A DNA stretch of 28,074 bases from a virus. Within the stretch, counting starts at the first letter, position 1; every line of letters starts with the position of its first letter. Shown here one piece after another: positions 4,602-25,798 of this stretch. The stretch covers positions 1 through 28,074 of the IMG/VR virus record IMGVR_UViG_3300046751_000348; one strand, given 5' to 3'. The notes beneath the pieces were generated by a model, which was not told the origin of the DNA, did no database searches, and saw only the letters and a list, made by a program, of their open reading frames with translations. The position numbers and the translations under genes are program-made.

Positions 4602-5015
4602 TTATTTATCTCCTGCTATCATGTTTGCCACATCGACACTTCTCTGTCCTACCTGACGGGCGTAATTAGAATCTAATAGTTCAGTACCGGCCAGCTCGTA
4701 TGAACCTTGCTCTAAGTACGAAATAGTATTTTTAAATTTACAAAACGTGCTTAACCCCATGTTAAACACTAGATTAACTATTGCTTCTTTTCGTATGTCG
4801 GTCAAACCGTCAAACCAAGAGAATGTAGCTTGGCACTGAGCCACAACGCTTTTAATGTCGTTATCAAGAAGATACAGGGCCTCATCTTTAGTGATTCCGA
4901 CTTCCTGTATATTTCTCCCCACGCCAATAGTGGTTTTGTTGGCGGTACACTTGTAGGGCTTTAATTCTAGCCCTTCATGCACTACCAGTTGCTTTTTAAG
5001 TCTATCGTAATCCAT
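4602..5015 (-). CDS. GH24 lysozyme (endolysin)
   Basis: A 137-residue T4-lysozyme-type muramidase. Alignment by eye to T4 lysozyme places the catalytic Glu at E14 (HEGLELKPY), the Asp20 equivalent at C23 and Thr26 at T29 (TTIGVGRN). The Asp-to-Cys change is a known natural variant of the GH24 triad, and a Cys at this position of T4 lysozyme is reported to retain activity, so the enzyme is probably active. Further family features are the DIKSVVAQC helix and the LVFNMG segment. There is no signal peptide, so release needs the holin. Its ATG overlaps the holin stop by one base (TAATG), a coupled holin-endolysin pair. This is most likely the endolysin that frees progeny. Confidence 0.92.
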   Translation of the reverse strand: MDYDRLKKQLVVHEGLELKPYKCTANKTTIGVGRNIQEVGITKDEALYLLDNDIKSVVAQCQATFSWFDGLTDIRKEAIVNLVFNMGLSTFCKFKNTISYLEQGSYELAGTELLDSNYARQVGQRSVDVANMIAGDK

Positions 5016-14802: not shown

Positions 14803-15588
14803 CTACCTAGCCGCACCCGAAACGTCATAATCGAATCTGCCAGAGCGAATGGCATCTTCAATTTCTTTTTCATACTGGTCAAATTCCTGACCGCTTAAAG
14901 CCGATACTTTAGACTCACTCCATGTAGCATTTCCACTGGCAGCTCTAGGAGCAGCACCAGAAGATCGAGTTACAGATTCCGCCGCAGCTTTATCCGGCTG
15001 TGCCTTGCGATTTTGTCTAGCTTTTGCTACGTCTGCCTTATACAGATCTATAGCTCTAGCCGCCGCAAGGGCATCCGTGTCGTTAGAATACAAAGCTTCT
15101 TGTATCCATTTAGGCTGTCTTTCTGCCCAAACGTGAAACCGACGGTCCTGTCTAATAGTATCAAAGTCAGGATGCAGAGCTTTTAAATGCGTCTCTGCTT
15201 TTTCTTTGTGTATTTTGGTCTCTAGCTTTCTAAGACCTTGCATTTTTTCTTCGACTTTACTGGTAGCTTCTAACGCTCTGCGCTGTGCTATAGAGTCGAT
15301 AATGCCTGCTACGTCAGGATACTTAGTAACCCAATCCGCAATTTCTTTATCTGTCTTAGGAAACTTAATTTGTTTCTTAGTAGCAGAGTCTAATTGCGCT
15401 CGTAGCTTTCTTGCTTCAGCTTCGGCAGCGTCTGTCTTAGCCTGTGAATGCCGCCGTAAGTCCGAGTAGCGTTTCTTAAATGTTTCTTCTTCTACAGTAG
15501 CCGCCACGGGTTCTGGTGCTGCCTGTACTTGTTCGGGTGCTTCTTCTTTATCTAAATCGTCTCTATAAGAGCCTTGATACTTAGCCAT
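14803..15588 (-). CDS. Scaffolding protein
   Basis: A 261-residue, highly charged, mostly helical protein directly upstream of the coat gene, where podoviruses encode their scaffold. The N-terminus is acidic and Pro/Ala-rich (EEAPEQVQAAPEPVA). A coiled coil follows (about 35-75, FKKRYSDLRRHSQAK to LRAQLDSATKK). Residues 75-200 are helical with TDKEIADWVTKYPDVAG and LHPDFDTIRQD, a pattern I recognise from marine-phage scaffolds. The C-terminus (EFDQYEKEIEDAIRSGRFDY) is a charged helix that could bind the coat. No protease motif is present. It would fill the prohead during assembly and leave before or during packaging. Confidence 0.85.
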   Translation of the reverse strand: MAKYQGSYRDDLDKEEAPEQVQAAPEPVAATVEEETFKKRYSDLRRHSQAKTDAAEAEARKLRAQLDSATKKQIKFPKTDKEIADWVTKYPDVAGIIDSIAQRRALEATSKVEEKMQGLRKLETKIHKEKAETHLKALHPDFDTIRQDRRFHVWAERQPKWIQEALYSNDTDALAAARAIDLYKADVAKARQNRKAQPDKAAAESVTRSSGAAPRAASGNATWSESKVSALSGQEFDQYEKEIEDAIRSGRFDYDVSGAAR

Positions 15589-15652: not shown

Positions 15653-18600
15653 CTAGTCTTTTCTTCGTCGGAAGAAGCCTTCGTCGTCTCTTAGAAATGC
15701 AAAAGGTGTAACTGTTTCGCCGCCTTTTTCAAAAGAAAAATTAGATAATTTGTCTCCTACCTTTTGACCTACGTCAAACATTTGCATTCCGCCCGCTATA
15801 CCCGTTTGGAAAGCTGAGTATTCGTCCTCTGATCCGCCGTAACTTTGAGCGGCTTTCATCAACGCTTTAGCTACGTCGTTAGGTTCTAGATCTTTAAACT
15901 TTTCTGCATCTTGTGCAGGTGTGTCTGAAAGATCTGTGTCAAAATCTACGTCAACTTCTGCGTCAGCGTCTTCTACTACACTGTCTGCTACGTCTTGACT
16001 AGAATCTTCTCGATCTGGGTTTCGTAGACTATCCATCTCATCTACTTCACTTGCCGTTAGATCTTCTTCTCTTGCGTAACGCTCCTCAAGCTCACGGAGT
16101 CTTTCTTGCTCGTCAGAGTCTTCGTATTGTTGCATCATTAGGGCGTTGTCTTCTAACGCAAAAGGATTACCACCTTCTGCAAACCCTTTCTTCTCCATCA
16201 AACCGCCGCCGTAGAATACACCACGACCTTTAAGGATGTCCGCTTGGGTTACCTTGCCGTCGTCGTTAAGATCAGGAAAGGATTTCTTGCCTGCTAGTCC
16301 GCCTTCGTTAAACGCTTTTAGATTACCCTTAACTTTGCTGGCGTACTTTTTATCTTCTTCTTTTACTTTAGTAGGCGTGTCTGTAGTGTCTACTGCAGCA
16401 ACAGTAATAGATTCGCCGTCAGGTGTTTTAATCTTTTTGCCTTTTTTAGTGTTAGGCTCTTGAGTTACTTTTTCGGCTTCTAGCGGCTTTGCTTTCTGAT
16501 CTAGAACGTAGCCACCGTTGTCTTTCATATCTTTGACTTCGTCCTTTTCCATGTCGTAATCCGTAGGAACAAGGTCGTCCATAGCCATAGACATAAGACC
16601 CATTTCAGCTTCAACGTGCATACCCTGTATGTGCTTTAAGCCGTGCCATTTAACTACGTCAGCAGGTAAAACGTACTCACCGTCAGATAGAACAGCGTCT
16701 AGGTCGTCCCGTACATTCTTAGCGCTAGAGCCTAGAGGGACTTCGTTGCCGCTTTCTGGGTCAAAGCCTACGACAATCTCTGTAGTAGACATAGGGCCGC
16801 AGTCTGACATCATGCCGCCGTGATATAATTCTTCTGGTTCTTTCATAAGTCCGCCTTTGTATTTTCCTTTAGCTTTAGTTATTCTAATTCCGGGGCTAGT
16901 CCCAGTAGTACTCACTATATCTGCTGTAAAATCGTCTCCCAAAACGTCAGACGCATACTCTTTTAACTCACTCGGCGTAAATCCTTTTTGATACGTTCCT
17001 TTAGCTAGTATTACCGACCCTTGTTCCGGCCCCAGCGCAGCTTTTACCGGCCTAGCTTTAGATCCAAAAACATCAGATCCTCTAGTAATTATTACGGCTT
17101 CTCCTCCGGGCTTTAATATTCTACCCATCTCAGACACTAAGCCATCCCTAATCTCTTTGGGGACTACGTTTAAAACGTAGGTGTTTACTATTTTGTCGTA
17201 GGATTCACTAGGTATGTCTGCACTAGAAGTAAACGTAGGACTTCCTCCTACAAATCTATCTTTTGGAAACGGCTCGTAGCTGTCAGCTTTTAGTTTTGCC
17301 GCGCCATGACCGTGACCTGCTCCGTAGTCTAAGACACTTTCTTTTTTACTTTTTGAAGAAAAGAAATTTTCTACCTTATCATATATTTTAGTATTTATCT
17401 GAGTAAGTTGCGCTTTTTCTGGAGCAGGTATAGTGTCAGGAACAGCATCAGATGCTTTAAACCATTTAGGTGCTTTCAAAGCATTTTTAGCCATCCTTGC
17501 GGGCAGCCCTAGTCCGGGTATTGCCCCTGCAGCAGAAAGAGTAGCCATGCCGTAGTCGCCCTGCTCAAAGCTTTCTACTGCTTCTTTTGCAGAAATAGCT
17601 TCTCCCGTAACAGGGGCTAGAGAAGCAGCAAAGTAAGCTGCGTCTTCTATAGTATCTCTGTTGTCAGTAAAGAAATTAGTTTCGTCTTCTTCAACGGACA
17701 TCAAGCCGCCTTCGTTTTTTTCTTCTACTATATCGTCGTAGAATTTTTTACGGTCTTCTTCCGCTTCTTCAGGAGAATCGTAGCCTTCTATTTCTCCAGA
17801 CTCTATCAACGGCATGAACTTTTCCGCTACTTCTTCAGAGTCTAATATTGTTTTGCTTTCTGGGTCGTAAGAAGGAAGAAGATATTCCTTTCCGTTTATT
17901 CCAACTCCAGTAATTCTCATTGTAGTAGTCATGCCATCTTCTACTAACTCGGAGTCACTGGAGACCACTTCGTTGTGAAAATTTTGTAGAAACCTTTTGT
18001 TTTCTGGAAACAAAGGGATGTTATATCTTTCTTCCATCTCTTCTCGGTCTGTTTCCATAGCTCTTTTTTTAGCCGAGGAGCTTCCAAAAAACCCAGCTTC
18101 GTCGCTAAGGTCCCCATACCTGCCTGTCCTTGCGGGGTCGTCTAGCTCAGGTGGAGAATACTGATGATCTCTTTGGTTTAACTCATCGCGCACTTCTGGG
18201 TGATAGATGTCGTCAAACTGATTTAATATGTAAGGGCTAACATTTCCGTTTAAGTAACCATAAGAATAGTTTATTATAAAAGCTTGATTTCCCGGATTGT
18301 GATAAACATTTTTATAGTGATCTAGAAGATTACCCTTTGCCGTTTCGTATTCCTTACTGTCAAACCCTTTTTTGTATTCTTCTTCAGCTTTAGCTGCTAG
18401 ATCGGCTAACTCTTCACCTTTATCCGAATCGCTTATGCTACCCATATACCCTAGCGCGTTTATCATATCGGAGTCGTTTTGAGAAGTTAGTAGCTCCATC
18501 TGCGCCATTGTTCCGTGATCTCTTGAGCCAAATCCTCTTCTATGTTGATACTCGTGGGCTATAGTCCCAGAGTCGGCTCCGTCCATAAACACATTTACCG

Positions 18601-19108
18601 TATCGGGACTTAAAACAAATTCGTAAGTTTTTCCTGTTTTTTTTGAAGTCCAAGACTCTATAAAATCTTCTGGGTTTTTAGAACTAGCGTAAGTACCTTT
18701 TCTGGTAAACGTAGTGTCGCCTTCTTCTGGCGGCAGTCCATGATAGCGGAAAACAGAAGGATCTACTGGCTTTGAGCCTTTAGGCATTCTGTCTCCTACT
18801 GCCATTTGAAACTCTGCGTCGGCCATTTCAAAAGAGGCCTTTTGTTCGGCTGACATCAAGCCGCCTTCGTTTCTGTGACTAGCAGTTTTCTTTGCAATCT
18901 TTTTAGGTTGCTTAGAATGTTGTTTACCTTTCTTGGTATCTTCTCGTTTCTTCTTAGTAGAAGCCGCGTACTCTTGCGGACTGAGAGAGTCTATTGCAGA
19001 TTTAGGCAAGTAACGCTCACCAGTTTCTGCAGACTTTTTACCCGACTTAGTACCCCAGTCTTGGCTAGTCCAATCCTTTAACGACTTTTGAGACTTTTTA
19101 AGTGCCAC
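15653..19108 (-). CDS. Giant modular protein: HExxH, methyltransferase-like, Ca-loop, GGLM motifs
   Basis: A 1151-residue mosaic starting at GTG, one base overlapping the preceding TAG. In order: a basic N-terminus (1-80); GGLM (82-85); a domain with the zinc-peptidase motif HEYQH at 185-189; a segment with GVGINGKEYLLPS (about 400) and SPEEAEEDRKKF as in phage internal proteins; GGLM again (467-470); a hydrophobic APVTGEAISAKEAVESFEQG part; a class I SAM-methyltransferase-like domain (motif I VLDYGAGHG at 592-600, later ILKPGGEAVII near 675); GGLM (752) and GGMM (764); a module GFDPESGNEVP with DGEYVLPADVVKWHG; a calcium-loop-like DLNDDGKVTQAD (946-957) between GGLA and GGGLM; and an acidic C-terminus. 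Such modules occur in marine-phage virion proteins (from memory). It lies between packaging and scaffold genes. A virion role is likely; enzyme activity is unproven. Confidence 0.82.
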   Translation of the reverse strand: MALKKSQKSLKDWTSQDWGTKSGKKSAETGERYLPKSAIDSLSPQEYAASTKKKREDTKKGKQHSKQPKKIAKKTASHRNEGGLMSAEQKASFEMADAEFQMAVGDRMPKGSKPVDPSVFRYHGLPPEEGDTTFTRKGTYASSKNPEDFIESWTSKKTGKTYEFVLSPDTVNVFMDGADSGTIAHEYQHRRGFGSRDHGTMAQMELLTSQNDSDMINALGYMGSISDSDKGEELADLAAKAEEEYKKGFDSKEYETAKGNLLDHYKNVYHNPGNQAFIINYSYGYLNGNVSPYILNQFDDIYHPEVRDELNQRDHQYSPPELDDPARTGRYGDLSDEAGFFGSSSAKKRAMETDREEMEERYNIPLFPENKRFLQNFHNEVVSSDSELVEDGMTTTMRITGVGINGKEYLLPSYDPESKTILDSEEVAEKFMPLIESGEIEGYDSPEEAEEDRKKFYDDIVEEKNEGGLMSVEEDETNFFTDNRDTIEDAAYFAASLAPVTGEAISAKEAVESFEQGDYGMATLSAAGAIPGLGLPARMAKNALKAPKWFKASDAVPDTIPAPEKAQLTQINTKIYDKVENFFSSKSKKESVLDYGAGHGHGAAKLKADSYEPFPKDRFVGGSPTFTSSADIPSESYDKIVNTYVLNVVPKEIRDGLVSEMGRILKPGGEAVIITRGSDVFGSKARPVKAALGPEQGSVILAKGTYQKGFTPSELKEYASDVLGDDFTADIVSTTGTSPGIRITKAKGKYKGGLMKEPEELYHGGMMSDCGPMSTTEIVVGFDPESGNEVPLGSSAKNVRDDLDAVLSDGEYVLPADVVKWHGLKHIQGMHVEAEMGLMSMAMDDLVPTDYDMEKDEVKDMKDNGGYVLDQKAKPLEAEKVTQEPNTKKGKKIKTPDGESITVAAVDTTDTPTKVKEEDKKYASKVKGNLKAFNEGGLAGKKSFPDLNDDGKVTQADILKGRGVFYGGGLMEKKGFAEGGNPFALEDNALMMQQYEDSDEQERLRELEERYAREEDLTASEVDEMDSLRNPDREDSSQDVADSVVEDADAEVDVDFDTDLSDTPAQDAEKFKDLEPNDVAKALMKAAQSYGGSEDEYSAFQTGIAGGMQMFDVGQKVGDKLSNFSFEKGGETVTPFAFLRDDEGFFRRRKD

Positions 19109-19296: not shown

Positions 19297-19430
19297 TAAC
19301 GTCGTCGTGCTTTTGCTTTAGCTTTTGGCTTACGCATTGCTGGGGCTTTTTTCTTAGTTGCTCCGCCTTTAGCGTAACCTTTTTTCTTTTTCATGCCGCC
19401 TTTAGCGTAACCTTTCTTTTTTTTCATCAT
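19296..19430 (-). CDS. 44-residue lysine-rich peptide with tandem repeat
   Basis: A very short gene. It starts at ATG 19430, overlapping the previous TGA as ATGA, has AAGGG 9 bases upstream, and ends at TAA, which overlaps the next ATG. The product contains two exact tandem copies of MKKKKGYAKGG (residues 2-12 and 13-23), followed by an Ala/Lys/Arg tail ending in RRR. It has 21 Lys/Arg in 44 residues and no acidic residue. Perfect coupling on both sides and a sensible protein pattern make it a likely real gene. It resembles protamine- or histone-tail-like peptides and may neutralise DNA in the capsid. That role is inference. Confidence 0.75.
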   Translation of the reverse strand: MMKKKKGYAKGGMKKKKGYAKGGATKKKAPAMRKPKAKAKARRR

Positions 19431-20110
19431 TTCTTTTTGCCCTTTGAGTAGAGATTATTAAATACCCTGTCCTTGTCTAAGGAGTAGTCAAAGTCATCCT
19501 TAGAGTTGTACGTGTGTTGATTGGGTATAAAGTCAGGAGCGCCTTCGCCCATTTCAAACCAAGCGGGGTGCGACACCCTAACTCGATTATTCGGTAAAGC
19601 AACTATGTTGCCCGTGTACTCTCCAGCGTCTAGCAGTTCTAATACGTGTGACTGCTTGTGTTGCGCTGGGTCGTCTGCTACTTCATTCTCTGTGTAGTCA
19701 ACAGTAAAGTAATACTTAGCAGGGTAAAACTCGCCGTCTATCTTAGCCAACCAAGGCGCTGGTGTAGCTCTCTCTAGTACATATACCGAATGCGTATGAG
19801 ACATACAGTCCCAAGGTTGTGCTAGATGAGGCGGTAGTTCTTCAGGCCACACTTCTAACGGTGTATCGGCTATCAGCGCAGTCAGTGGCATTCTTGCCCA
19901 CATTGCACCACCATGTACATTTGGCTCGTCGGTATCGTCCGATTCACAGCCAGTAAATATTACCTGAAAGCTAAGTGTTCTTTTTGGCATAGTGGTTACT
20001 GCTACAACCATGCAATGCAAAAACTCACCTTCATAATCTTGTAAATTTTTTGTGTACTCTTTTCTTACCCAAGCCTTAAAATAAGGAATGTTAGATTGTA
20101 AAAAAGCCAT
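19427..20110 (-). CDS. Conserved-type hypothetical protein between portal and head genes
   Basis: A 227-residue protein starting MAFLQSNIPYFKAWVRKEY. It is rich in aromatic and acidic residues and Trp/Pro segments (PLEVWPEELPPHLAQPWDCM, PAWFEMGEGAPDFIP), with no TM segment, signal peptide or known catalytic motif. From memory, proteins of this kind lie near the portal in marine podoviruses, where they are unassigned. It starts 30 bases after the 72-residue gene and ends in an ATGA overlap with the 44-residue gene. A role in head completion or as an accessory virion protein is possible. There is no direct support beyond its place. Confidence 0.78.
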   Translation of the reverse strand: MAFLQSNIPYFKAWVRKEYTKNLQDYEGEFLHCMVVAVTTMPKRTLSFQVIFTGCESDDTDEPNVHGGAMWARMPLTALIADTPLEVWPEELPPHLAQPWDCMSHTHSVYVLERATPAPWLAKIDGEFYPAKYYFTVDYTENEVADDPAQHKQSHVLELLDAGEYTGNIVALPNNRVRVSHPAWFEMGEGAPDFIPNQHTYNSKDDFDYSLDKDRVFNNLYSKGKKK

Positions 20111-20359: not shown

Positions 20360-22567
20360 CTACTGTAGCATCTCGCCTTCGCCAGTATTAGCGGCGAAAC
20401 CTGCTGCTCCGGGTTCTGGTGCGGCTCCGGGCTGTACTGTACCCCCTGCTCCTGTAGGGTCTTGTAGTGGAGGAGGACCGCCTTGAGGGCCTTGTGGTGG
20501 AGCGCCACCCATTAGTGCTTGCAACATAGCTGCAGGGTCTTGTGCTTGCTCTGGTGCTGCCGCAGGATCAGGCTCTGGCATATTTTCCATCAGTATTTTC
20601 TGATAGTCTGCCGCCATCTTAGCTTGTATCTCTGCTTCTCTAGGGTCGTTAAGAATCTTATCTTCGTCTAGATCCATAGAAGCTGCAATCTCGCGTAGAA
20701 CGTAGTCGTACTTAACGAACGGAGCCATAGCAGGATTCTGTGCTACCTGCATAAACTGCATCAGTTTTTGTGAGCGAATCTCGTTACGCATCAACGACTC
20801 TGTGCCTAGTGCTTCTACATCTAAGTCCCCGTTAGCATCTGGGTCGTACTTAAACTGCATATTAAACGCAAAGAAAGCTTTGCCTAGTGGCCCTAGTAAA
20901 TAGTCATCTACGTTACGGACAACAGCCTTAATGTTCTGTGCCGCCGCACCCATTAGCATAGACATACCAGAAGCAGTACGACCTACGCCCATAACGCCTG
21001 TCATACCGTGAGAGTACGAAGGGATACCTGTAGATTCGTCTGCAAGCTGTCGTGTCTTGTCAAACATTTGCAAACACTCGTTAGTTACGTTAGGGAACTT
21101 AGTGCCAAAGATAGCCTGTCCCGGAGCGCCTGCTTGCCGTCGGAATATCTTTCCCGGATAAATAGACATATCTTGTCCCGGAATTAAGTTAGTTTCGTCT
21201 ACTTCTATGAGTAGATTAGAAGACAATGCTGCGTTGTCGATAGCCATACGCATGAAGCCATTCATTAGCAACTGCGTGTCTTCCATGTTTTCTGCTACGC
21301 CTACCCCAAAGAAAGAGTAAGGGTTTAATTCGTAAGGCACAGCTTGGTAAGGAATACGAGAAGGCGTAAATGGATTTAGCACTAATCGTAGAATGTTACC
21401 GTTACAGACCCAAGCGTTAATGTGTACTTGGTCTTTATCTTGTAGATTTTTAGGTAGCTCCATGCCAGCTTCTTCAGCTAACTGTGCGTCTAACACGCCC
21501 CAGTACTCTAGTACTTCGTAGCGGTTGGTCTTAACACTTACTTCGCTGTCTTCTAGTACGTCTTCCCAGTACTCTGTGTTGTACGAAGGACCCATTTCAA
21601 TGCTGGATTCTATAGCGTCGTCGATAAAGTACGGGCGTTTTTTAAGTCCGCGTAATTGAGAGCGAGACATTCTGTGACGCTGGATAACGTACTCTGCCTC
21701 AGACATATTGTGTGCGTCTGGGTCTGGGTATACGTCCCAGATAGAAACAGACTCTACACGAGGCACAGTTTCAAAGATAGGAGAATACTCTCCGTCTTCA
21801 GTCCAACGAGGGTACTCTTTGTCGAACGCAAAAGGTCCTTTAAGAATACCTGTGCCAAACAAAGACATCTCAAACGCTACGTTACGCAAATGCTTAGACG
21901 CTTCACTCTCTTCTAGTTGATCGTGAATGCGCTTCTCCATATTACGAGCAGCTTTAATAATTGGTTCAAAGGTAGCAGACGTAGGTGTGTGGCCGTAGCC
22001 TTCTTGTAGTACGTCTTCTACTCTTTCTAAAGATTCTGAATAAGGGCCAAAGTTACCGCCAAAGTCTCTAGTAGCGTTGTTTCTAGGGCCGGACGGTGTA
22101 GTTTCTTCTGGCTTACCCGTAGCAGGGTTAGGTACTTTGGACGCAATGTTTTCTTCGGTTAACTCCATCTCGTCAAAGTAGACAGCAGAAGGAGCGTCCC
22201 CTACAGGATTTTTAGTAGGAGAAATGGCAATAGGAAACTTAGAACCTGCAAACAGTACGTCAACAATTTGTGCGTATGCTGCCAGTACTTTAGTTTTAGT
22301 TATCTTAATAAACGCACGAGACTTTTCAGAGTCAGTAAATCTTACGTCGTCCCCGTAGACACCTCGGTAGTTACGATACGCCTGTAGCCAACGAGTTTCG
22401 TCGCTGTCTCTTTTCTCAGAAGCCCTACGATACTGCTCTCTTATCCAAGGCTCTACGCCACCGTAGCCAGACTCGCCTTCTTTCTCTAACGCAAACAACT
22501 CGTCAGTAATAGAATCAAGGTCTGTTTTTAACTCTTCTGTAGTACTTGGCTTTTCAATTATAGGCAT
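20360..22567 (-). CDS. Portal protein
   Basis: A 735-residue head-vertex channel protein. The first half has the charged helical pattern of large podovirus portals (VEPWIREQYRRASEKRDSD, WLQAYRNYRGVYG, then AFIKITKTKVLAAYAQIVD). The centre contains SVSIWDVYPDPDAHNMSEA, a landmark of this portal group in which the phrase WDVYPDP is typical. Later come NPYSFFGVGVAENMEDTQLL and GVGRTASGMSMLMGAAAQN, both typical portal signatures. The C-terminal 80 residues are a low-complexity Pro/Gly/Ala/Gln tail (APPQGPQGGPPPL). The size fits P22-like and marine podovirus portals (about 700 residues). It lies directly after TerL with no gap. It would form the dodecameric ring through which DNA is packaged. Confidence 0.92.
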   Translation of the reverse strand: MPIIEKPSTTEELKTDLDSITDELFALEKEGESGYGGVEPWIREQYRRASEKRDSDETRWLQAYRNYRGVYGDDVRFTDSEKSRAFIKITKTKVLAAYAQIVDVLFAGSKFPIAISPTKNPVGDAPSAVYFDEMELTEENIASKVPNPATGKPEETTPSGPRNNATRDFGGNFGPYSESLERVEDVLQEGYGHTPTSATFEPIIKAARNMEKRIHDQLEESEASKHLRNVAFEMSLFGTGILKGPFAFDKEYPRWTEDGEYSPIFETVPRVESVSIWDVYPDPDAHNMSEAEYVIQRHRMSRSQLRGLKKRPYFIDDAIESSIEMGPSYNTEYWEDVLEDSEVSVKTNRYEVLEYWGVLDAQLAEEAGMELPKNLQDKDQVHINAWVCNGNILRLVLNPFTPSRIPYQAVPYELNPYSFFGVGVAENMEDTQLLMNGFMRMAIDNAALSSNLLIEVDETNLIPGQDMSIYPGKIFRRQAGAPGQAIFGTKFPNVTNECLQMFDKTRQLADESTGIPSYSHGMTGVMGVGRTASGMSMLMGAAAQNIKAVVRNVDDYLLGPLGKAFFAFNMQFKYDPDANGDLDVEALGTESLMRNEIRSQKLMQFMQVAQNPAMAPFVKYDYVLREIAASMDLDEDKILNDPREAEIQAKMAADYQKILMENMPEPDPAAAPEQAQDPAAMLQALMGGAPPQGPQGGPPPLQDPTGAGGTVQPGAAPEPGAAGFAANTGEGEMLQ

Positions 22568-24793: not shown

Positions 24794-25798
24794 TTATCGT
24801 CTTTTATTTTTAGGCCTAGTTAAAGCTGCGGCTCTTTGGTATTGCTCAGGAGTCAGTACCATGCCTCCTTTGTTCATTGGTCGAGGCGTAGTCCCTGCGT
24901 TCCTTCCTCGCTGCATTTGTGCCGCCGCCGCCGCTTGCTGTGGCGTTACTTGAGGGCGAGTAAACCTAGCTTGGTTGGCTGCTCGATTTGTCTGTTCAAG
25001 TGTCCTTCGACCACGAAAAGAATTGGGATTAGGCACAGGAGGACGATAGTTAGGGTTAGGTATCCGAGGGCCAAAGCGGCTACTGGTGGGAAGGTATCTG
25101 TCAGTAGTGTTCACATAATTAGGGTTAGGTATCCGCCTGCCACGAGGGCCACCGGACTCCTGTGTGAATCTGTCAGTAGTGTTCACATAATTAGGGTTAG
25201 GTATCCGAGGGCCAAAGCGGCTACTGGTGGGAAGGTATCTGTCAGTAGTGTTAACCGGCGCTTGAGGGTTAGGTCTAAGGTCAGGTGCGCCACGAGGAGG
25301 CCTACGATCCATAAAAGGCTGATTTAAAGGTACGCGAGTAGGATTAGGATTAATAGCCCCACCAGCCCTAGGTCCCATTGGAGTTGGAGTAGGTCTAAAT
25401 CTAGAGGGGGGCCGACTACCATCAGGATACATAGCGGGTTGGCCTATGCGCTGAGGCCTACGAGGACCCGGAGTAAAGTTAGATGGCCGAGATCCTCCAG
25501 TTGCAGTGTCTACATACCGAGGACCCGTGCGTTGAGGGTTCCTGTTGTTTTCCAGAGCGTCTCTTTTAGTTTGCTCGGCAAGAAGATCCGCGTCAATCAT
25601 ACCACCTTCGTGAAGAGGACGACGAGCAGGCTTCTTAGCTGCTGGCTTTTTCTTCTTAGCCATAGGTTTGGCTTTAGCTTTAGGAGCCGCTTTCTTAGCA
25701 GCAGGCTTAGCCTTAGTAGGCATTGGACGTTTTTTTGACGACGGCTGTGCCGCCTTAGCCGCAGGCTTTTTCTTAGTAAGCTTCTTCTTGGCAGGCAT
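24794..25798 (-). CDS. Histone H1-like, proline-rich repeat protein
   Basis: A 334-residue protein and the first gene after the late promoter. The N-terminus (1-62) is an Ala/Lys/Pro run (KKPAAKKAAPKAKAK) like histone H1 tails and bacterial or phage DNA-binding tails. Then comes HEGGMIDADLLAEQ (63-76), followed by a Pro/Arg/Asn-rich middle with three units of about 23 residues (PNPNYVNTTDRYLPTSSRFG type). The C-terminus contains NKGGMVLTPEQYQRAAALTR and a basic end. The GGM motifs echo those of the 1151-residue protein. Low-complexity sequence prevents a family call. It could bind the phage genome in the head or take part in packaging. The AGGG in front of the ATG overlaps one arm of the 16-bp inverted repeat. 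Confidence 0.8.
   Translation of the reverse strand: MPAKKKLTKKKPAAKAAQPSSKKRPMPTKAKPAAKKAAPKAKAKPMAKKKKPAAKKPARRPLHEGGMIDADLLAEQTKRDALENNRNPQRTGPRYVDTATGGSRPSNFTPGPRRPQRIGQPAMYPDGSRPPSRFRPTPTPMGPRAGGAINPNPTRVPLNQPFMDRRPPRGAPDLRPNPQAPVNTTDRYLPTSSRFGPRIPNPNYVNTTDRFTQESGGPRGRRIPNPNYVNTTDRYLPTSSRFGPRIPNPNYRPPVPNPNSFRGRRTLEQTNRAANQARFTRPQVTPQQAAAAAQMQRGRNAGTTPRPMNKGGMVLTPEQYQRAAALTRPKNKRR
25050..25252 (-). repeat. Three in-frame tandem units of 69-72 bp
   Basis: Inside the proline-rich gene three units begin at 25050, 25119 and 25191. The outer two are identical over 62 bp (25050-25111 and 25191-25252). The middle one shares only its ends (TTAGGGTTAGGTATCCG and CTGTCAGTAGTGTT) and differs in the centre. 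Units are multiples of three, so the frame is kept and each codes for 23-24 residues. This is recent duplication inside a coding repeat. Confidence 0.9.

Follow-up and report, generated by a model that had tools for sequence, protein, structure and literature searches.

A mosaic gene between the portal and scaffold genes

The window analysed here is the whole of IMG/VR record IMGVR_UViG_3300046751_000348, a viral record of 28,074 bases whose minus strand carries most of the genes. Its portal, terminase and coat genes are nearest to those of HMO-2011-type podoviruses of marine Roseobacter and SAR116 (CRP-3, CRP-738, CRP-212 and HMO-2011), and the window is a fragment of a marine podovirus of this type. 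Our subject is the 1151-residue protein P0001, encoded between the portal gene and a probable scaffold gene (the portal–scaffold slot), and a short double-glycine (GG) motif that recurs in it. The P0001 gene is syntenic with CRP-3 gp36, CRP-9 gp54, CRP-212 gp38, HMO-2011 gp49 and others in the interval from portal to scaffold/coat, which in annotated relatives lies within the head/packaging block; in the related records examined the slot gene is labelled only as hypothetical. The gene, its borders, its modules and the motif copies are listed below, together with their fate in three related loci (L021, L101 and L102).

15653–19108, minus strand: mosaic slot protein P0001, 1151 aa, GTG start (open reading frame, ORF)
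20360–22567, minus strand: portal, upstream border of the slot (PF23899 SU10_portal, E 4.6e-30)
14803–15588, minus strand: probable scaffold, downstream border of the slot (adjoins the coat gene; synteny with related phages)
18872–19108, minus strand: N-terminal basic module, residues 1–79 (phrog_14910, E 7.7e-35); a free-standing protein in other phages
17738–18847, minus strand: cassette of residues 88–457 with an HEYQH (HExxH) stretch; missing in L101, L102 and L021
16859–17701, minus strand: cassette of residues 470–750, a hydrophobic segment and a methyltransferase (572–680; PF13489, E 5.7e-7)
16583–16768, minus strand: constant core module, residues 781–842 (NVRDDLDAVLSDGEYVLPADVVKWHGLKHI...; hidden Markov model (HMM), AlphaFold2 (AF2))
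16208–16300, minus strand: small insert of residues 937–967 between GG copies; precisely missing in L101
18854–18874, minus strand: GG motif at residue 82, HRNEGGLM; joint of cassette deletions in L021, L101 and L102
17699–17719, minus strand: GG motif at residue 467, KNEGGLM; flanks the cassette missing in L101 and L102
16844–16864, minus strand: GG motif at residue 752, KYKGGLM; joint in L021 and L101
16808–16828, minus strand: GG motif at residue 764, LYHGGMM; opens the constant core module
16292–16312, minus strand: GG motif at residue 936, FNEGGLA; in L101 fused directly to the 968 copy
16196–16216, minus strand: GG motif at residue 968, FYGGGLM; in L101 fused directly to the 936 copy
16163–16183, minus strand: variant at residue 979, FAEGGNP; GYDEGGLF in L021, GYAEGGLV in L102
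19296–19430, minus strand: 44-aa Lys-rich peptide, GYAKGGM...GYAKGGA
24794–25798, minus strand: 334-aa basic protein with motifs at residues 65 (LHEGGMI; 25595–25615) and 311 (MNKGGMV; 24857–24877)

P0001 joins a methyltransferase, the phrog_14910 module and the core, and its relatives swap modules; several unrelated domains are carried on one phage-encoded chain. The N-terminal module stands free as HMO-2011 gp59 (64% identity). The cassette of residues 470–750 is 83% identical in L102 and is swapped for another module in L101. The HEYQH cassette was assigned by eye as a putative metallopeptidase; it had no Pfam hit, and no relative was found when it was sought elsewhere. By eye, the insert at 937–967 holds a stretch resembling an EF-hand or dockerin (DLNDDGKVTQADI). 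None of the catalogued polyvalent domains (LPD, PBECR, MPTase) was present in P0001, and Pfam and phrog profile searches found no match to a known ejection protein family. The methyltransferase module (17069–17395) has relatives of 41–45% identity in mycobacteriophages Bigswole, Myrna, Phabba and ScoobyDoobyDoo, and the hydrophobic segment ahead of it (17480–17650; DAAYFAASLAPVTGEAISAKEAVESFEQGDYG...AAGAIPGLG) has a by-eye likeness to polymorphic toxin linker segments.

A scan with P0001 alone found only one close relative. The slot sample consisted of 80 metagenomic loci obtained by portal-based retrieval, with ORFs called mechanically, and annotated phages; the interval from portal to scaffold was closed in 68 loci. 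The slot nearly always contained one or two large and hugely variable ORFs, with a main ORF of 199 to 2050 aa, and is among the most size-variable loci seen in this analysis. The loci at the extremes (L070 6298–12447 and L042 9699–10295) have portals 58–64% identical to that of the window. A core of about 60 aa, corresponding to P0001 781–842 (consensus DPVSGNxVPxGSxxxEVRDDIPAxLSEGEYVxPADVVRYxG), was found by HMM in 64 of the 68 closed slots, anywhere along the chain. AF2 modelled the core with a pLDDT of 82–93, and placed the GG residues in or beside low-confidence stretches. When this model was used in Foldseek, mainly unnamed phage proteins were matched, several of them of slot-protein lengths (1292, 715, 647, 1395 and 762 aa), and tape-measure proteins were matched weakly. 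Pfam searches over 43 slot proteins identified lysozymes, cell-wall hydrolases, LysM, methyltransferase, DUF7178 and, in three of the 43, LPD23 ('large polyvalent protein associated'). This domain content fits that of ejected multi-effector proteins, which would be located in the virion. Some slot proteins also carry long poly-glycine runs (L013 10139–13876, which is CRP-345 gp62, with about 20 glycines; L017 16313–19294).

The GG motif at cassette joints and protein ends

The original prediction placed GG[LM] motifs in P0001 at residues 82, 467, 752, 764, 936 and 968, and all six positions are exact. There is a seventh copy, GGM at 1106, that lacks the following M/A, and there are variants at 979 (GFAEGG) and 1129 (SFEKGG) that had not been reported. 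The seven GG[LM] copies compare with a mean of 0.82 in 20,000 residue shuffles (P 5e-5), and the six copies of GG[LM][MA] with a mean of 0.09; six were never reached in the same number of shuffles. The GG at residue 764 is nearly invariant among 57 homologues. Two copies had been described as encoded by identical DNA, and we found this stretch to be GACATCAAGCCGCCTTCGTTT, 21 nt in length, at 17697–17717 and 18852–18872, which encodes NEGGLM with flanking bases at residues 82 and 467. GGM is likewise present, as claimed, twice in the 334-aa protein (LHEGGMID and MNKGGMVL) and a single time in the 44-aa peptide, where GYAKGGA is found too; the GYAKGG repeat of this peptide has three copies in L021.

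To define the motif we built a profile from 115 non-redundant slot proteins, for which [FYM]-x-x-GG-[LMAVI] was the better form. The most informative position was three residues before the first glycine (F 4.5-fold, M 3.6-fold and Y 1.9-fold), a constraint that the earlier description did not contain, and there was also bias in the residue preceding GG (H, E, K, Q) and in the two that follow (M/L, then V/M/A). The frequency test that had been proposed gave a clear excess, with 170 copies of [FYM]xxGG[LMAVI] against 17 after shuffling, and 12 copies of the mirror motif [LMAVI]GGxx[FYM]. When copies with similar flanks were dropped 72 remained, 15 of which adjoin the core. Copy number scaled with protein length (rho 0.65). 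The rate was 2.25 per 1000 aa in slot proteins, 0.43 in upstream genes and 0.17 in scaffold, coat and tail genes, the last being background level; T7, P-SSP7 and HTVC010P were at or near shuffle level. A general phage or glycine bias is ruled out by the mirror motif, the shuffles, these three phages and the scaffold, coat and tail genes. Relatives of the methyltransferase in non-HMO contigs had 15 forward and 10 mirror copies, which is background, and an origin of the motif within the methyltransferase is likewise ruled out.

Glycine codon usage is the same at motif GG and at other GG; the DNA sequence itself is therefore not conserved across phages, and a DNA-level recombinase site is ruled out. 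In alignments of 25–70% identity, the per-site rate of identity was 72% for motif glycines away from the core, compared with 48% for other GG, 54% for glycines standing singly and 55% for tryptophan. We conclude that conservation of the motif is at the protein rather than the codon level.

The motif had been said to lie at module boundaries, and this was borne out by a set of 95 proteins with 760 clustered homology breakpoints. Half (50%) of [FYM]xxGG sites were no more than 12 aa from a breakpoint, compared with 26% expected from circular shifts (z 7.8, against 2.5 for other GG). Controls gave 30% against 25% for other GG, 18% against 24% for W and 22% against 25% for PG. Since conserved residues tend to draw the ends of BLAST alignments, the figure to consider is how far the motif exceeds other GG. 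In close relatives, four of seven distinct breakpoints fell within −6/+7 residues of GG[LM], a zone covering 8% (P 0.0014).

Individual joints can be seen in the three related loci. Residue 82 is the point at which the homology of L021, L101 and L102 breaks off (phrog_14910 ends at 79), and residue 752 serves as a joint in both L021 and L101. In L021 (portal 94% identical) GGLM82 is fused directly to GGLM752, the intervening cargo is deleted, and 18 bases are common at the joint. In L101 (91%) precisely the GG936–GG968 stretch is missing, an insert that these two copies bracket, with 14 bases common at the joint. The 82 and 467 copies are also joined directly in L101, where GGLM82 leads straight into the segment that in L102 follows the 467-equivalent GG, and its methyltransferase has been exchanged for another module that ends FPFNKGGLM exactly at GG752. 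L102 lacks residues 88–457, with homology resuming at 458, and keeps KGGLM, KNEGGLV and KGGLM around the same methyltransferase. Recombination at the copies had been suspected, and the new joints in these relatives do share 14–18 nt of DNA. In L047–L049, separate ORFs end in the module that replaces the methyltransferase in L101 (KFNQGGFATAVGY, AFNRGGFAAPVGY and AMNRGGLLSPLGY; KFNQGGF..., AFNRGGF... and AMNRGGL...), and thus a cassette can keep its end motif whether it is free or fused.

The motif is also placed at C-termini in relatives, which was not part of the original prediction. GG[LIFMV] was present in the last 18 residues of 31 of the 93 complete slot ORFs that are 200 aa or longer, where 6.2 would be expected (maximum 14 in 1000 draws). 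The ending is typically GFNKGGLMQKKKK or FKKGGLASKKKK, often with lysines after the motif, and 25 of the 31 proteins end basic. The copies in upstream genes are largely in small Lys-rich proteins, for example as GYAKGGMKKKK repeats, and the motif is common to several proteins of the same phages, as had been proposed, with a terminal placement in a third of the slot set and copies in the small basic proteins. Gene position and domains suggest that the motif-bearing proteins are virion proteins. Some of the small upstream proteins consist mostly of repeated [YM]xxGG with KK spacers (L053 180–455, L054 4590–4895 and L077 696–1304).

A candidate docking tag and its alternatives

The reading that we favour, with a probability of about 0.45, is that the motif is a docking or loading tag on cargo cassettes that is also an in-frame joint. 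On this view P0001 is a cargo protein built of several modules, which most probably enters the head of its HMO-2011-type podovirus and is ejected along with the DNA. Its core of about 60 aa would be constant and its remaining modules interchangeable: here a methyltransferase and a putative metallopeptidase, with lysozymes, cell-wall hydrolases and a polyvalent-associated domain among those of relatives. The linear tag [F/Y/M]-x-x-G-G-[L/M]-[M/V/A], often followed by lysines, would mark cassette edges, standing at the natural C-terminus of any cassette or protein that stops at that point and inside the chain where cassettes are fused. It would allow new cassettes to be loaded by docking them to a conserved partner in assembly (the portal, the scaffold or the core protein), and its copies within one gene would provide in-frame joints for cassette deletion or replacement. 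We prefer this combination of tag and joint because the motif is a protein-level, group-specific feature that lies at edges and C-termini and is conserved on both sides of GG. More tentatively, [FYM]xxGG[LM][MVA], often with a basic tail, may be a general loading tag of HMO-2011-type phages, such that any module acquiring it would be docked, packed and injected; the dock would then be a conserved partner on the portal or scaffold side, and the slot a natural plug-in delivery system.

Several points weigh against a loading tag. No receptor was found, and in the open-licence literature we found neither virion proteomics nor a described motif or tag for HMO-2011-type phages. Copy number ranges from none to more than six, some slot proteins lack the motif, the free-standing HMO-2011 gp59 has no GG, and four more distant slots have no core. 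The z-scores overstate independence since the sequences are related, and the attraction of BLAST ends to conserved residues is lessened, not removed, by the other-GG control. Full-length AlphaFold2 of P0001 (pLDDT 44, pTM 0.28) was uninformative on linkers and domains.

An alternative that would not need to invoke binding is that the motif is a recombination scar or flexible linker only, with GG repeats acting as handy in-frame joints. The precise GG-to-GG deletions with 14–18 nt in common at the joint and the 21-nt identical repeat in the window are what such a scar would leave, but motif codons are no more uniform than those at other GG, the F/M/Y at −3 and L/M at +1 are unneeded in a linker, and among diverged homologues the motif glycines are better conserved than either other glycines or tryptophans. 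The motif also occurs at C-termini with nothing after it, and we regard this explanation as unlikely.

A second alternative, that a protease of the host or the virion cleaves within GG or just after it and so frees cassettes from a polyprotein, seems to us likewise unlikely. The motif lies at module edges as a polyprotein would need, with copies scaling with length, and P0001 has the HEYQH stretch; cleavage at GG|x is moreover familiar from the adenovirus protease and from double-glycine leaders. Processing by zincin-like peptidases has also been proposed for polyvalent proteins (PMC5512222). However, cleavage at the C-terminal copies or at the repeats in small basic proteins would free no module, residues are conserved on both sides of GG, and L101, L102 and L021 lack the HEYQH cassette yet keep the motif. 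Neither Peptidase_C39 nor Peptidase_S78 was found in 15 related genomes, in searches whose control genomes gave signals; the search for C48 had no positive control and host proteases were not searched. Taking the C-terminal copies, the conservation on both sides of GG and the failure to find C39 or S78 proteases together, the evidence leans to a tag.

It is very improbable that the aromatic-GG-basic repeats are simply stickers, akin to other low-complexity aromatic/Gly/Lys stretches, that condense cargo with the genome in the head through no specific receptor, since a Lys-rich context (GYAKGGMKKKK, FNKGGLMQKKKK) is found but hydrophobic L/M-M/V/A is strongly preferred after GG and the internal copies of P0001 are often amid acidic residues (KNEGGLMSVEEDE).

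Related systems and further observations

In T4-type phages, a capsid targeting sequence is a short peptide that sends cargo proteins into the head. The GG motif would by analogy also be a short cargo-directing peptide; the T4 signal, however, is N-terminal and cut off by the prohead protease, whereas the slot motif is C-terminal or internal and no S78 protease was found in the 15 genomes. The slot proteins resemble podovirus ejection proteins (such as T7 gp14–16, P22 gp7/16/20 and SU10 gp20–24) in that they belong to a podovirus with an SU10-type portal and include cell-wall hydrolases and lysozymes; SU10 itself carries ejection proteins (PMC9509320). The slot proteins differ in their extreme module turnover, and in T7 the motif is at background. 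Phages and conjugative elements also encode polyvalent proteins, for which Iyer et al. (2017; PMC5512222) proposed entry into the host together with the genome. Like slot proteins, these are large and multidomain; they mix metallopeptidase-like, methyltransferase, lysozyme and LPD domains, and of the last LPD23 occurs in three of the 43 slot proteins. Slot proteins, by contrast, have a fixed genomic slot, one constant core and the candidate GG tag; in the passages of that account that were consulted no joint motif was seen, and in its text 'glycine' and 'linker' were without match. Cargo effectors of polymorphic toxin and type VI secretion systems (for example RIX, PMC10435454) likewise combine a constant trafficking-like module with exchangeable effector modules, but the slot is a phage gene whose constant module can be anywhere in the chain and whose joints carry a short motif.

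The core (window 16583–16768; L015 6293–7297) is also related to the 'SDSIPAxLSxGEF' module of tape-measure proteins, despite these phages being short-tailed. The core of pelagiphage HTVC115P matches phrog_6090 (E 1.5e-11) and other tape-measure families; podoviruses, however, have no long tail, and the HMO-2011-type form (EVRDDIPAQLSEGEYVVPADVV) matches these families weakly.

Phages of the HMO-2011 type have been described as a dominant group with a broad distribution in the ocean (PMC9038755). A loading-tag role for the motif would account for their swapping of delivered effectors; in that case injected proteins would be predictable by sequence alone, and the motif would be a candidate signal for phage head protein loading; if it is instead a processing site, it would point to an unknown GG-specific maturation protease.

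Elsewhere in the window, between the portal and P0001 genes there are only the gene for a 227-aa protein (19427–20110; phrog_3704, a ferredoxin-labelled family), which is present in L021 too, and a few small ORFs. Two distinct lysozyme-like ORFs were recognised by eye from the sequence at 4602–5015 and 836–1552, and the latter has a hydrophobic C-terminal region that is membrane-spanning in appearance.

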